Of a stretch of 64,000 bases of DNA, positions 14,440 to 21,155 are shown one piece after another (positions within the stretch are counted from its first letter, which is position 1; each line of letters opens with the position of its first letter). This DNA is from a virus. The notes under the pieces were generated by a model. That model worked only from the letters and a program-made list of their open reading frames with translations, was not told where the DNA came from and searched no databases. Both the position numbers and the translations under genes were made by a program. The stretch covers positions 62,001 to 126,000 of IMG/VR virus record IMGVR_UViG_3300044949_001773. One strand, 5' to 3'.

Positions 14440-14468
14440 TTGACATCCTTCCAAGAGTGTCCTATACT
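14440..14468 (+). promoter_or_regulatory. Host sigma70-type promoter (TTGACA-17-TATACT)
   Basis: A perfect -35 TTGACA (14440-14445), 17-base spacer and TATACT -10 (14463-14468), one base from consensus. The predicted start is near 14475, about 20 bases before the ATG at 14494. The inverted repeat TTCGT-AAAC-ACGAA (14472-14485) spans the start. It would allow the small genes downstream to be read by host polymerase. Confidence 0.8.
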
Positions 14469-14493: not shown

Positions 14494-14676
14494 ATGCGAG
14501 ACGAGTACCTGACACGCTGTGTTGTAGATCCCATTAAGCGCACTGTATATCTTTATTCTAATGAAGGATCTACAAAAGAAGTGGTCTGTGAAACGGTGGA
14601 TGAATTTATGAATGTATTAGAGTTTGTTCGTTCTACAGTAGATGAAGAAACTCTTTCATATGCATCTCCACTATAA
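14494..14676 (+). CDS. Small conserved-looking protein of unknown function (60 aa)
   Basis: 60 residues starting MRDEYLTRCVVDPIKRTVYL, acidic toward the C-terminus with a predicted mixed beta/alpha fold. I do not recognise a named family. It is the first gene behind the sigma70-type promoter at 14440, which is the main support for its being real, with codon use like its neighbours. The 5' untranslated region is about 20 bases and has no Shine-Dalgarno. Early or middle expression is inferred. Confidence 0.65.
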   Translation: MRDEYLTRCVVDPIKRTVYLYSNEGSTKEVVCETVDEFMNVLEFVRSTVDEETLSYASPL

Positions 14677-15309: not shown

Positions 15310-15555
15310 ATGCTTACTTATAGAGAATTTTACGAGATTTGCGAGGGAAAAAAATCAACAGATCCCCCTCACGCAGTTCCGGGATCTGTTAAAGATTTGG
15401 GAGATGGTGCTAGAACTTATACTCTTCAATCTTATACCGGCCCTTCAGGACCACCATCTAAAAAAGAAATAGAAAAAACAGTAATTAGTAAAAGCGGTGG
15501 TAAAGAAGTGAAGAAATATGTTAAAGCAAGAGATAAGAAGAAGAAAAATCCTTGA
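15310..15555 (+). CDS. Basic small protein of unknown function (81 aa)
   Basis: 81 residues. MLTYREFYEICEGKKS is a short helix; the middle is Pro/Gly-rich (QSYTGPSGPPSKKE) and the end is strongly basic (KYVKARDKKKKNP), so nucleic-acid or capsid-interior binding is possible but unproven. The start follows the previous stop directly. The C-terminal codons overlap the -35 box of the promoter at 15552. Confidence 0.6.
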   Translation: MLTYREFYEICEGKKSTDPPHAVPGSVKDLGDGARTYTLQSYTGPSGPPSKKEIEKTVISKSGGKEVKKYVKARDKKKKNP

Positions 15556-15580
15556 CACATATTTAAATTTGACTTATAAT
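15552..15580 (+). promoter_or_regulatory. Consensus sigma70 promoter (TTGACA-17-TATAAT)
   Basis: TTGACA (15552-15557) and TATAAT (15575-15580) both match consensus with the ideal 17-base spacing, a rare perfect promoter. Transcription should start near 15587, and a terminator-like hairpin follows only about 60 bases later. Confidence 0.85.
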
Positions 15581-15586
15581 TATAGT

Positions 15587-15650
15587 GCGATACGTAAGTA
15601 TCAGTGACCCAAAATGTGTGACTTCAAAACCTCCTTCTGGAGGTTTTGTT
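15587..15650 (+). ncRNA. Candidate short noncoding RNA (about 64 nt)
   Basis: Between the perfect promoter and a terminator hairpin lies a segment with no convincing reading frame. The RNA would begin with a hairpin GATAC-GTAA-GTATC (15589-15602), a five-pair stem with a GNRA-type tetraloop. It then has a single-stranded middle and ends with the stem AAAACCTCC/GGAGGTTTT. This is the classic plan of a small regulatory RNA. Alternatively it is a short attenuated leader before the giant late gene. Confidence 0.5.
15626..15650 (+). terminator. Intrinsic terminator-like hairpin
   Basis: AAAACCTCC (15626-15634), loop TTCT, GGAGGTTTT (15639-15647), a perfect nine-pair stem followed by GTTG. The T-run is short but the A-rich/T-rich foot makes it work in either direction. 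Confidence 0.7.
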
Positions 15651-15654
15651 GTAT

Positions 15655-15662
15655 GATAAATA
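15655..15662 (+). promoter_or_regulatory. Late promoter (GATAAATA) for the giant structural gene
   Basis: GATAAATA 30 bases before the ATG at 15693. It lies in a 16-base string, ATAAATAAATTATAAG (15656-15671), that also occurs before the 5354-codon gene at 44216-44231. Confidence 0.6.
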
Positions 15663-15692: not shown

Positions 15693-18600
15693 ATGGGTCT
15701 CAGTCGTCTAGAGAATTTTTTGCGTTCCGTAAGAGGAAATATAATCTATGTTGATCCAAATTCATTAGATTCAACAGATTCAATAGAAAATACTGGAACA
15801 GCATTAACAAGACCTTTTAAATCTATCCAAAGAGCTCTTATTGAAGCAGCTAGATTTTCATACTTACCAGGTCCAAACAATGATAGATTTGGGGAAACCA
15901 CAATTCTTGTCTATCCAGGAGATCATTTAATTGATAATAGACCTGGTTGGATTCCAGATGGTGAAGGAACCTTTAGATTAAGAAATGGTCAAATTTCTTC
16001 AGACTTTACTGCCTTTGACCTAAGAACTAATTTTAATGTAACGACTGACAATAACGCACTTTACAAAATGAACTCCATTCATGGTGGAGTAATTGTTCCC
16101 AGAGGAACATCTATTGTTGGTATAGATCTCCGTAAGACAAAAATTAGACCGAAGTACGTACCAAATCCAAAAAATTCAAATATTGAAAGATCGGCAATAT
16201 TTAGATTAACTGGCGGATGTTATCTATCTCAATTTTCAATATTTGATAGTGATATTAATGGACAATCATTTATAGATTATACTGGCAATAAGTATACTCC
16301 AAACTTTTCACATCATAAACTGACATGTTTTGAATATGCTGATGGTTACAATAAGATTGATATTAACGATGATTTCCAAATATATTCTACTGATAGAACA
16401 GATTTAGATGTATATTATGAAAAATTGAGTCTTGCTTATGGACCAAGCGCAAGAGAAATACTTCCAGATTATCCAGATGATGTGGATATTGAAACAAAAA
16501 TTGATGAATATAGAATTGTAGGCTCTAGAGGAGAAGAAGTAGGAATAAGTAGTATCTTCTCTGGAGATGGAGTTACGGCAAATAAAACCATTACGGTATT
16601 CCTTGAAAGTGAAGTAGAAGGATTGGCTGTAGATACTCCAATAAGAATTGATGGAGCTGTAGTGGAAGGTTATGATGGTCAATATATTGTTAAAAATGTA
16701 GTAAGTCCAACACAAATTCAATTTGAAACTACTGTCATCCCAACAGGTCCTGATGGAGGAACGGGTGGTACATTAAGTATTGTTTCTGATACTGTAACTT
16801 CAGCATCTCCATATATCTTTAATTGTTCCTTGAGATCTGTATATGGAATGTGCGGATTACATGCTGATGGAGATTCTGTTGAAGGTTTTAGAAGTATTGT
16901 AGTAGCTCAGTTTACTGGAATCTCACTACAGAAAGATAATGATGCTTTTGTAAAATATGATCCTCAGTCTGGTAAATATTTGGATTCTGAAGATGTTCCG
17001 AATATTTACTCAGATTCTCTTGGAAGATATAAACCAGAATACGAGAACTATCATATTAAAGCAAGTAATAATGCATTTATTCAGTGCGTATCTATCTTTG
17101 CGATTGGGTTTGCTCAGCAGTTTGAAGCAGCAAGTGGTGGAGATCAATCAATAACAAACTCAAATTCAAACTTTGGTGCAAAGGCATTATTATCTCGTGG
17201 ATTTAGAAAAGATAAATTTATTAGAGATGATCTTGGTTACATTACTCATATAATTCCAGCAAAACAAAATATTTCCGATACTATTAATATTGAATATTTG
17301 GGATATGATGCCGCAAAAACTGTTTCTGTTGGGTCAACAACAAGATTATATTTATACAATCAGACTGATGAATCATCTCCCCCAGAACATATAATCAACG
17401 GTTTCAGAATAGGGGCAAAAAAAGATGATGTTTTATATTTGCCATTTTCTTCAGGCATATATAGTGCTCCTATTATTATGGGAGAAAATTATCAATTCGC
17501 TTATGAAAAATCTTATAAGGTTGCAAAGCAAATTGACGGGATAACTAATTCAATTTCATCAAATATTATATCATTACAAACATCTCACCAGCTCCAAGAT
17601 GGAGAGTCTGTAAGATTGATAAGTGACACTGGAGAACTTCCAGATAAGGTAGAATCTAATAGAGTTTACTATGCGATTACTTCTGGATTATCCGCAAATC
17701 AACTCAAAATAGCAAGCTCATTTAATGATGCTATTAGTAATAATAGTGTTGATATTTACAGTAATGAGGCATCAAATATTAAAGTAGTAAGCAGAGTTTC
17801 TGATAAAAAATCAGGTGATGTCGGACATCCTGTACAATATGATGATGTAGAGGGTCAGTGGTATATAACTGCCAAACTCCCAAGTGCTTTCTTAACAGCA
17901 CTTGGACTTTTGAATCTTGATCCAGAATCAACTACTTTATCTACTGGTCAAAGAACATACATTCAAAGACTCGTTGACAGTAGAGCATTAGAAGATAAAC
18001 TTTATAAAATTAGATATGTAATACCAAAAAATACGGATGTAAAGTCTAGAACCCCTCTTGACGGTTATATCATACAATCATCCACTTCAATTCCAGAAAG
18101 TGATGCTGAGGTAAGCTATCAGTATGGATTATCTACAGTAAAAACTTTAGATGCAGAAAATCAACTTAGAAGCACACGATTTATATCAAATGCTTCTTGG
18201 GATGGAACTTCAGCAACTATAACGACTGAACTTCCTCATAGATTAAGTATTGGTTCTCAAGTTGATATTTTAAATATTTTAAGCACATCCAATGTTTCCG
18301 GAACTTACAATTCCGGATATAATGGTCTGTATACAGTTACTCAAATTACAAGTTCTAGATCATTTAAATACACTTTATCTTCAGATCCAGGAACCTTCTT
18401 AGATAACACTTCAACAAGAACCAGAGCATTACCTCGCTTTGATCGCAAACAATATGATGGAACATATTTCATCTATAAGTCTCAAGAACTTCAAGAATAT
18501 GTTCATCAAAAACAAGATGGCATTTATTATTTGACCGTATTGAGTTCTTCAACAACTCCAAATGTAGATCCATTTACTAATTTCAAATTATCTCAACCGA

Positions 18601-21155
18601 TTAAAAATTTATATCCAGAAATTGATAGAGATAATTTAAATTCGGATCCAGATCCAACTGAATGTTTTGCCCTCCCGGATCCAATTGGGCAAGTAGTTGT
18701 AAATAATCCAGAGAAAAGTATTACAAAAGAATCAATAAATGATATACTAATTGAGAATTCGGTAGGATTTGGAGTTACTTATATTAGTACTACTAGCGGA
18801 TTTACGCACATGATTTTTACAAATATAGATCATGGACTGAATCCAATCACTAGTCTAACAATTTCAAATTCCGGAAATGCTTATGGCACAATTTCTGGAT
18901 CAATACAAACATTATATAATGCCGATCTAACTGGTGGTTCTGGAGAAGGTGCTTCTGCTGTAGTAAAGACTAATACTTCTGGATCAATTACAGAAATTGA
19001 AATTATGAGCGGTGGTAGCGGTTATGTTGTGGGAGATGTTTTAACAGTTACTGGGGTGGCCACAACAACCGGACATTCTCCAGCAACGGTAACAGTAAAT
19101 TCAATCTACAATCATGTAGGTGAAATTTTACAAATATCCGGCGTAGGTGAAGATTATGAACAATATAATACTCTTTATAGAATACTTAGTGTAGATGGAA
19201 GTAAAAAAGTAACAGCAGAAAGTGCTACAAATATTTCTCATTCATCAGTATCTCAGGAAAAACTTACAAATTCAAATTGCCATTTAACTGGAGGTCTCCA
19301 TATTAATGGAGGTGGTGTAAATGGAGGATTTCAAGTATATTATAATGCTTTAGTGGAAACTGATGGCATTCAAACGTTCCTTAAAGTTGTTCTTTATAAT
19401 ACACAAAGACCTAAACAACTAAAAGTTGGTCAGAAAATAATTTTAAAGACATTAGCAAACGCCTCAAGGGAATTTGTTATTACTGGATTGGCGAGATATG
19501 CTAATAAAGATGGTTTTACAATAGAAGCGGTTGATAATACTCCAAATCTAGCTTTTCTTGGTTCAAATCCAAGAACATTCCCATATGGCCATTACTCATC
19601 ATCCTACGGAAACAATACAGAGGACAATGAAAATAGAGTAGTTACAAAGTATGGTGGAGTCATGTCTACATTGACATCTACAATTACTAACACAACTACA
19701 ACTATAGGAATTAGCAATCTAAGTTCATTAGGGCTTAAGATCGGAGATTATCTTGAAATAAACAATGAAATTGTAAGAATATCAAGATCTGTTTCTGGTT
19801 CTTCTATTCAAGCATTCCGAGGATTATTGGGAACCCAAAGTAGGTCTCATGGAACTGGCTCTTATGTTAAAAAGATAATTATTACTCCAATAGAATTTAG
19901 AAGAAATTCTATTCTAAGAGCTTCTGGACATACGTTTGAATATGTTGGATTTGGACCAGGAAACTATTCAAATTCATTACCGGAAAGACAAGATAGACAA
20001 ATAAGCGAAGAAGAAGAAATTATTTCACAGTCATTAAAAATTGATGGGGGAGTTACTGTTTATACTGGAATGAATAATGATGGTGATTTTTATATTGGAA
20101 ATAAAATTATAAATTCCTCTACTGGTAATGAAAGCGTATTTGATTCTCCGATTCCATCATTAAGAGGTGATAAGACGGATAATAAATTTAATAATATTAT
20201 AAACACAGAAAAAGCCAATATTACAGATTCTATTAAAGTTGAGGGCGGTCCAGATGGAACTTCAATTTCCGAATTTAATAGTCCAGTAATATTCAATAAC
20301 AGATTAACTTCAAATTCTGGATTTGGAATTGAAAGTAATTCAATTTATATTCAAGGTAATGAAACCGTCTCTAGAAAATATACAGTTACTAGTTCAGAAC
20401 CTACAATAATAGGAAACGTAGGTGATGTTGAGTATTATTCAAGACCAGAAGATGGGGAATTCAGTGGGTGGATTTACACTAGAAATAATGCTTGGAGAAA
20501 ATATGGACCAGTCCAAAATGCGGATGGAGCGTATGAAGGAACTTGGAATGGAACATTTGAAGGTACATTTTATGGAGATGCTTCCGGATTAACTGGACTA
20601 GATTCTGCATGGAAGAGAACAAGTGCTGGCATACATACATCAGTGAATGTCGGTATTGGTACAGAACAGGCAAGTAGTATTCATAAACTTGAAGTTAATG
20701 GATCCACTAACATTAAAGGAGTATTAAATGTTGGAGAAATTATAGAACGAGTTACAATTGATTCTTCAACCGAACTTGGAAATCCATTATCACCAACAAC
20801 AAATATTAATCTTGGAGATAATAATGTATATTATTTTACTCGTTCCGCAACGCAAAATTGGGGTATAAATTTTAGATCAAGCGCTTCTCAATCTTTAGAT
20901 CAATTTATGAGTGTTGGTCAAACATTGACAGTTGCAATAATGACAACGCAAGGAGCAAATGCTTATTATAATAATACTACTTCAATTGATGGAGCAGCAA
21001 TCACAGTATTTGAGTATGGCGATTTGGAAATTATAGAAGGAAACCCTGATGGTATTGATATGTACACTTATGTCATTATTAAAAAATCTAATACTGGTTC
21101 AATACCTAACAAATTCACAGTATTAAGATCATTATCCCAATATAAACAGCAGTAG
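15693..21155 (+). CDS. Giant beta-helix virion structural protein (1820 aa)
   Basis: 1820 residues. The N-terminus GLSRLENFLRSVRGNIIYVD and then RPFKSIQRALIEAARFSY is, to my knowledge, a hallmark of a large baseplate or fiber protein of marine T4-like cyanophages. Residues about 20-500 have the spaced turns of a right-handed beta-helix (YPGDH, GGVIVPRGTSIVGIDLRKT). Shared modules follow: GSGYVVGD near 1106, ASGHTFEYVGFG near 1409, and near 1615 ASGLTGLDSAWKRTSAG. It is strand-rich, with no membrane segment or C-terminal S74 domain. A late promoter precedes it. Exact position in the virion is unknown; gp10/gp12-like baseplate periphery is one possibility. Confidence 0.75.
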   Translation: MGLSRLENFLRSVRGNIIYVDPNSLDSTDSIENTGTALTRPFKSIQRALIEAARFSYLPGPNNDRFGETTILVYPGDHLIDNRPGWIPDGEGTFRLRNGQISSDFTAFDLRTNFNVTTDNNALYKMNSIHGGVIVPRGTSIVGIDLRKTKIRPKYVPNPKNSNIERSAIFRLTGGCYLSQFSIFDSDINGQSFIDYTGNKYTPNFSHHKLTCFEYADGYNKIDINDDFQIYSTDRTDLDVYYEKLSLAYGPSAREILPDYPDDVDIETKIDEYRIVGSRGEEVGISSIFSGDGVTANKTITVFLESEVEGLAVDTPIRIDGAVVEGYDGQYIVKNVVSPTQIQFETTVIPTGPDGGTGGTLSIVSDTVTSASPYIFNCSLRSVYGMCGLHADGDSVEGFRSIVVAQFTGISLQKDNDAFVKYDPQSGKYLDSEDVPNIYSDSLGRYKPEYENYHIKASNNAFIQCVSIFAIGFAQQFEAASGGDQSITNSNSNFGAKALLSRGFRKDKFIRDDLGYITHIIPAKQNISDTINIEYLGYDAAKTVSVGSTTRLYLYNQTDESSPPEHIINGFRIGAKKDDVLYLPFSSGIYSAPIIMGENYQFAYEKSYKVAKQIDGITNSISSNIISLQTSHQLQDGESVRLISDTGELPDKVESNRVYYAITSGLSANQLKIASSFNDAISNNSVDIYSNEASNIKVVSRVSDKKSGDVGHPVQYDDVEGQWYITAKLPSAFLTALGLLNLDPESTTLSTGQRTYIQRLVDSRALEDKLYKIRYVIPKNTDVKSRTPLDGYIIQSSTSIPESDAEVSYQYGLSTVKTLDAENQLRSTRFISNASWDGTSATITTELPHRLSIGSQVDILNILSTSNVSGTYNSGYNGLYTVTQITSSRSFKYTLSSDPGTFLDNTSTRTRALPRFDRKQYDGTYFIYKSQELQEYVHQKQDGIYYLTVLSSSTTPNVDPFTNFKLSQPIKNLYPEIDRDNLNSDPDPTECFALPDPIGQVVVNNPEKSITKESINDILIENSVGFGVTYISTTSGFTHMIFTNIDHGLNPITSLTISNSGNAYGTISGSIQTLYNADLTGGSGEGASAVVKTNTSGSITEIEIMSGGSGYVVGDVLTVTGVATTTGHSPATVTVNSIYNHVGEILQISGVGEDYEQYNTLYRILSVDGSKKVTAESATNISHSSVSQEKLTNSNCHLTGGLHINGGGVNGGFQVYYNALVETDGIQTFLKVVLYNTQRPKQLKVGQKIILKTLANASREFVITGLARYANKDGFTIEAVDNTPNLAFLGSNPRTFPYGHYSSSYGNNTEDNENRVVTKYGGVMSTLTSTITNTTTTIGISNLSSLGLKIGDYLEINNEIVRISRSVSGSSIQAFRGLLGTQSRSHGTGSYVKKIIITPIEFRRNSILRASGHTFEYVGFGPGNYSNSLPERQDRQISEEEEIISQSLKIDGGVTVYTGMNNDGDFYIGNKIINSSTGNESVFDSPIPSLRGDKTDNKFNNIINTEKANITDSIKVEGGPDGTSISEFNSPVIFNNRLTSNSGFGIESNSIYIQGNETVSRKYTVTSSEPTIIGNVGDVEYYSRPEDGEFSGWIYTRNNAWRKYGPVQNADGAYEGTWNGTFEGTFYGDASGLTGLDSAWKRTSAGIHTSVNVGIGTEQASSIHKLEVNGSTNIKGVLNVGEIIERVTIDSSTELGNPLSPTTNINLGDNNVYYFTRSATQNWGINFRSSASQSLDQFMSVGQTLTVAIMTTQGANAYYNNTTSIDGAAITVFEYGDLEIIEGNPDGIDMYTYVIIKKSNTGSIPNKFTVLRSLSQYKQQ

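Follow-up and report, generated by a model that had tools for sequence, protein, structure and literature searches.

We found that an intergenic cassette of T4-like cyanophages encodes a predicted small RNA whose sequence is antisense to one host tRNA, tRNA-Val(CAC). The gene lies at 15552-15650 on the plus strand of the window, the 64-kb stretch of DNA that was analysed, which is part of a 131.8-kb cyanophage record carrying psbA; the phage host was deduced from psbA similarity. We consider it likely that the phage makes this RNA early in infection and that it sequesters host tRNA-Val(CAC), to the detriment of host translation. The antisense identity is read from the sequence, and we infer expression and effect.

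Promoter, body and terminator of the small RNA gene

The gene starts with a sigma-70-type promoter (15552-15580, plus strand) that matches all 12 of the 12 consensus bases, as the initial annotation had claimed: TTGACA at 15552-15557 and TATAAT at 15575-15580 are separated by a 17-nt spacer. It is the sole 12/12 match in the 64-kb window, and such a match occurs in 0.33% of random 90-nt pieces of related phage DNA, real promoters counted in. The predicted RNA is ~64 nt long (15585-15650, plus strand; predicted start at 15585-15588). It ends in an intrinsic terminator recognised by sequence and fold (15626-15650, plus strand), made of the nine-pair hairpin AAAACCTCC-TTCT-GGAGGTTTT at 15626-15647 and a following GTTGT. 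The hairpin lies ~39 nt past the likely start, in agreement with the ~40 bases given earlier. The fold of the window RNA (66 nt) has an energy of -23.4 kcal/mol (z = -4.2), which was equalled by 0 of 200 shuffles. No conserved frame was found in the body: the sole ATG, at 15614, opens 18 codons that run through the terminator and is lost in relatives, which carry AAAAAGTG at its place. This agrees with the earlier statement that no plausible frame is present. Overall, a small regulatory RNA gene at 15552-15650 is well supported, and its own promoter and terminator together with the lack of a conserved frame are features of a trans-acting antisense small RNA.

Within the body, three blocks on the plus strand are complementary to tRNA-Val. 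Block 1, GCGATAC (15587-15593), is the complement of the acceptor 3' strand GTATCGC, and block 2, CAGTGACCC (15602-15610), that of the variable region plus T-stem 5' strand, GGGTCACTG; both are seen in alignment and cofold. Block 3, GTGTGA (15616-15621), is the complement of the anticodon loop TCACAC and fits the anticodon CAC, not GAC.

A family of cassettes in T4-like cyanophages

A family search with the first 200 residues of the downstream fibre protein returned 55 IMG/VR loci, and the number grew greatly with pattern scans; the family consists mostly of contig fragments. Many of the 55 fibre loci have a promoter, a short body and a terminator at the same place, and at others the preceding small ORF runs directly into a late-type box, without the unit. 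At least 80 distinct versions, which fall into types A, B, C and D, occupy this place in T4-like cyanophages; the family counts are not independent because the members are related. The type A body (GGCGATAC..CCCTTCCGTGTG) is carried by isolates S-CAM1, Sf-FR1 and S-SCSM2R, and the type B body (TCCGTGTGAAGGA..GCAC..GTGC) by isolates S-SM2, Bellamy and S-B43. Type C, to which the window belongs, has the body GATAC..CAGTGACCCAAAANGTGTGACTTC, and type D the body CCTTCCGTGTGAA..AGTG... A promoter with at least 10 of 12 consensus bases precedes the body in 24/27 type C, 12/18 type B, 21/48 type A and 4/8 type D loci, compared to 2.9% of random pieces. Carriers are many marine and freshwater cyanophages, in which the cassette is intergenic and unannotated; searches for others within the same genome gave one clear copy per carrier. 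The cassette is absent from seven other isolate fibre loci inspected, including those of Prochlorococcus phages P-SSM2 and P-TIM68. A direct nucleotide search with the window's own sequence against named phages gave no match.

The terminator in the window is followed by the box GATAAATA (15655-15662, plus strand), which is kept in relatives as (A/G/C)(A/T)TAAATA and resembles the T4 late promoter, TATAAATA. The downstream neighbour is a tail-fibre gene (15693-21155, plus strand; 1820 aa, phrog_529). The type C RNA also precedes a different gene at two loci (L098:1059-1126 and L118:4399-4469; in L098, 424 aa, MGIQINGTTDTISATDG...), which by its look encodes a fibre-like protein. At L020:1599-2099 an HNH-endonuclease-like ORF (141 aa), possibly a mobile insert, separates a type D RNA from the fibre gene downstream. 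The cassette occupies a tRNA-rich place, and in S-CAM1-like phages the body starts within two bases after the tRNA-Asn gene. Elsewhere in the window, a second strong promoter (11/12) is located at 14440-14468, ahead of a small ORF at 14494. Three ORFs of ~400 aa in the same record (L393:538-4816; G000:126538-130816) are made of repeats like ITASDGAASDFFGYSVAVGSGRIVVGAYGDD.

Sequence, and not the 5' hairpin, is conserved

The initial annotation put emphasis on a 5' tetraloop hairpin, GATAC-GTAA-GTATC. The sequence is indeed present near the 5' end (15589-15602, plus strand), but its structure is not conserved. The position and pairing of the hairpin vary among relatives, where the string GATAC alone is kept, and in type A the 5' stem is often missing; with stem 1 displaced or missing in relatives, the emphasis is unsupported. 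In type C, GATAC of block 1 and GTGACCCAAAANGTGTGACTT are invariant at 27/27 loci, the scan itself having demanded GTGACCCAAAANGTGTGACTT, and GTGTGA of block 3 is invariant at all loci of this type. Pairing with the tRNA does not account for two conserved strings of type C, AAAA and ACTTC. Stem conservation with covariation had been proposed as a check; RNAalifold run on the family returned a weak stem and no covariation. Given this result and the shifting 5' stem, conserved structure was ruled out as the main signal.

The RNAs match host tRNA-Val(CAC)

In an unbiased search of three picocyanobacterial genomes, a model of type C hit the antisense strand of the tRNA-Val(CAC) gene in each, with 17.8 bits every time. 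A search of host genomes for copies of the RNA yielded this antisense strand plus a chance match only. The initial annotation had not seen this target; matches to phage mRNAs are probably due to chance (see below). By sequence comparison, all four types are collapsed antisense copies of picocyanobacterial tRNA-Val(CAC). Types A and C cover the stretch between acceptor 3' strand and anticodon loop, both included, with parts of the T-arm and variable region; the T-arm is shortened or remade. Types B and D cover the anticodon arm and the D-arm, with a shortened D-loop. In type B, the 7-nt loop of the hairpin UCC-GUGUGAA-GGA is the complement of the anticodon loop. The antisense reading is also supported by the finding that a single site hosts four architectures and that promoter and terminator are retained.

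We compared the bodies with a panel of all 41 tRNAs of one genome, Synechococcus RCC307. Val(CAC) was the best partner by alignment for 19 of 21 representative bodies, and its near-twin Val(GAC) for two type C bodies. For distinct type A, B and D bodies, Val(CAC) was the best of the 41 host tRNAs in 63/63 cases. The anticodon triplet was complemented in 63/63 as well, which is partly due to selection, since the scans demanded CCGTGTG-like strings; pairing outside these strings and the choice of tRNA are free of that selection. At positions that distinguish the two tRNAs, bodies of these types match CAC 218 times and GAC 3 times. Among 20 distinct type C bodies, the top partner, on T-arm plus acceptor, was Val(CAC) for 11 and Val(GAC) for 9; all 20 also carry GTGTGA, matching the CAC loop only.

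Cofolding gave a gain of -10 to -24 kcal/mol (shuffled-body means -0.5 to -3.5), with Val(CAC) the best partner in 12 of 13 cases. The gain for the window RNA was -9.7, versus -1.0 ± 1.8 (s.d.) for shuffles with a minimum of -7.0; its alignment score, taken by itself, does not reach significance (z = 1.6). Type C, the window's own type, is the weakest tRNA-Val(CAC) case, and the assignment of the window RNA rests on cofold and family. Overall, the complementarity to an RNA made elsewhere is beyond chance and kept in relatives, as judged by alignment, cofold and the survey of types A, B and D. Antisense to other tRNAs is not general at these loci: the best non-Val matches are mostly intron-split tRNA-Leu genes, tRNA-like stretches uncalled by ARAGORN, or weak matches. 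Pairing with the decoding site of 16S rRNA was an early idea, set aside when the tRNA match emerged.

Valine codons and tRNA genes of host and phage

The share of GUG among valine codons is 62.8% in a host sample (RCC307, 13,230 codons) versus 6.0% in the phage (34,885 codons). Since the host sample uses mostly GUG for valine and the phage rarely does, loss of the corresponding tRNA would harm host translation more than that of the phage, with the caveat that tRNA-Val(UAC) could in principle decode GUG by wobble. The tRNA-Val genes of phages have the anticodon UAC in all 4 of 4 read (S-CAM1, Bellamy, S-B43 and S-SM1). Cofolding of the antisense RNA with its own phage's tRNA-Val(UAC) is much weaker than with Val(CAC) (-5.8 versus -20.1 for S-CAM1, 0.0 versus -16.3 for Bellamy and -6.0 versus -21.9 for S-B43); the phage tRNA-Val(UAC) would be largely spared by the antisense RNA of the same phages.

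A survey of 151 genomes from the same family showed the common form of host tRNA-Val(CAC), 97-100% identical, in ~75. Six further genomes of the 151 have a 92% form instead, and both of its sequenced examples read CAC. In the remaining, mostly smaller, genomes the match is at most 90%, and the examples read are Val(GAC). In RCC307, a 3' piece of tRNA-Val(CAC) is repeated ~10.5 kb from the intact gene (L384 and L387; G006:C1:623875 and 634345), a pattern as expected for an island integrated at that tRNA.

We suggest that the host-type promoter leads to expression, probably early, and that the antisense RNA would invade or kiss tRNA-Val(CAC) in the cell. The bound tRNA would be unable to decode, or might be cut as a duplex, and the cost would be heavier for host translation than for phage translation. 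One point against the antisense reading is that tRNAs are tightly folded, and hence invasion would require help or a nascent tRNA. On a wider scale we also favour, with somewhat less assurance, the idea that T4-like cyanophages alter host decoding: an early antisense RNA would remove the GUG-reading host tRNA, and phage tRNAs would sustain phage translation.

Alternative explanations

The evidence for pairing would be identical if the RNA bound tRNA-Val(CAC) in order to shield or mark it, for example by guarding it from an anticodon nuclease or freeing something bound, instead of knocking it out. Nucleases of this kind are established weapons in phage conflicts, e.g. AriB (PMC12409363). We nevertheless find shielding unlikely: a tRNA with a covered anticodon cannot decode and, as the phage hardly uses GUG, there is little for shielding to protect. 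Slightly less probable again is that the cassette is a relic, either a tRNA gene that was inverted and has decayed or a former attachment site derived from a tRNA-Val gene. One could expect such a relic at a tRNA-rich locus, the repeat in RCC307 looks like an integration site, and types A and C span just the 3' half of the tRNA. However, types B and D span the 5' half, the identity with the tRNA is broken into blocks and not contiguous, and nine carrier genomes have no match to Phage_integrase (PF00589). ARAGORN finds no tRNA in the window and none on the minus strand at homologous sites. Moreover, the anticodon complement is kept in all type A, B and D bodies, and the promoter and terminator retained at these loci are oriented for antisense transcription.

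It is very improbable that the RNA is a T-box-like leader that senses tRNA-Val and governs read-through into the tail-fibre gene. Contact with the anticodon loop and a terminator ahead of a gene would suit such a leader, but Rfam gives no T-box match in the window at the gathering threshold and none among relaxed matches, the pairing is much longer than a specifier codon, and the tRNA would have to open. No antiterminator pairing was seen, the late-type box lies past the terminator, and the downstream genes vary, being tail fibres or an HNH endonuclease and not amino-acid or aminoacyl-tRNA genes. The position of the box and the presence of the unit before other genes also speak against half of an earlier proposal, an attenuator before the giant gene; the other half, a small regulatory RNA, is well supported, as the unit recurs in dozens of cyanophages. 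It is just as improbable that the RNA mainly targets a phage mRNA, with its 3' part, GUGUGACUUC, pairing at the start codon. A 12-nt complement is present after the ATG of an ORF at G000:130852 (L393:4852), and a 15/16 match after the ATG of an unrelated ORF in another genome (G004:C1:1809). However, 12-nt matches arose for shuffled bodies in 14 of 50 trials, the two genes differ, a similar site in G003 is without CACAC, and ACUUC varies in type A. We rejected this target, the shuffles and the G003 site indicating that the matches are probably chance.

Relation to known systems

No relevant Rfam family was found for the RNA at gathering or relaxed thresholds. The known cyanophage RNAs wcaG, manA, PhotoRC and glnA (Rfam) gave no match to it; the sole such match, to PhotoRC-I, scores 10.6 bits versus a cut-off of 45 and lies outside the RNA. 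In a full-text literature search of partial coverage, no report of a phage antisense RNA directed at a host tRNA turned up.

RNAI/RNAII and CopA/CopT are plasmid copy-control antisense RNAs, cis-antisense to the plasmid's own RNA. Type B resembles them in its mirror-image hairpins and loop-loop kissing; they act in cis on their own plasmid, whereas the target here would be a host tRNA in trans. CreT of CRISPR-associated toxin-antitoxin units is a small RNA that ties up a tRNA via rare codons during its translation. It likewise deprives the cell of one tRNA, but it does so through translated rare codons and belongs to CRISPR loci, whereas the RNA here has no conserved frame and would act by direct antisense pairing. 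PrrC is a protein anticodon nuclease of host defence that takes out one tRNA during phage infection. AriB of PARIS, also a protein anticodon nuclease of host defence, takes out one tRNA during phage infection too (PMC12409363). The elimination of one tRNA during infection is common to both and to our proposal; they are host-defence protein enzymes, while here a phage RNA would use base pairing instead of protein catalysis.

The nearest known cyanophage antisense RNA is CfrI of S-PM2, likewise from a T4-like cyanophage; it is described as ~225 nt long and cis-antisense to phage psbA and a homing endonuclease gene (Millard et al. 2010, via PMC2984593). CfrI thus acts on phage genes, whereas the RNA here is ~64 nt long and complementary to a host tRNA. 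The RNA here is also distant from psbA (psbA at G000:47869, RNA at 77583). Antisense RNA as such is not new; what would be new are its target and its presumed way of acting.

If the proposal is true, these phages would have a novel type of tool for taking over the host, an antisense RNA that targets a host tRNA; the virus would shut down host translation selectively via codon usage, by a 60-nt RNA and not a nuclease. It would also assign a function to an unannotated intergenic cassette of cyanophages. A search for antisense to tRNAs is a simple screen that we suggest for other phages.

Cyanophage tRNA gene clusters share the neighbourhood of the cassette (in S-CAM1 the RNA comes directly after tRNA-Asn), and both would alter the tRNA pool; the clusters supply tRNAs, whereas the antisense RNA would remove a host tRNA. 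Why such phages have tRNA genes at all is a long-standing question, which would become testable as a supply-and-sabotage pair. In cyanophage tRNA clusters we also observed tRNA-Leu halves split by a group I intron (L030:1281-1547 and L028:900-1169, with similar cases in L086, L089 and L106); the introns match Rfam Intron_gpI with 57-64 bits, and the genes are missed by ARAGORN.
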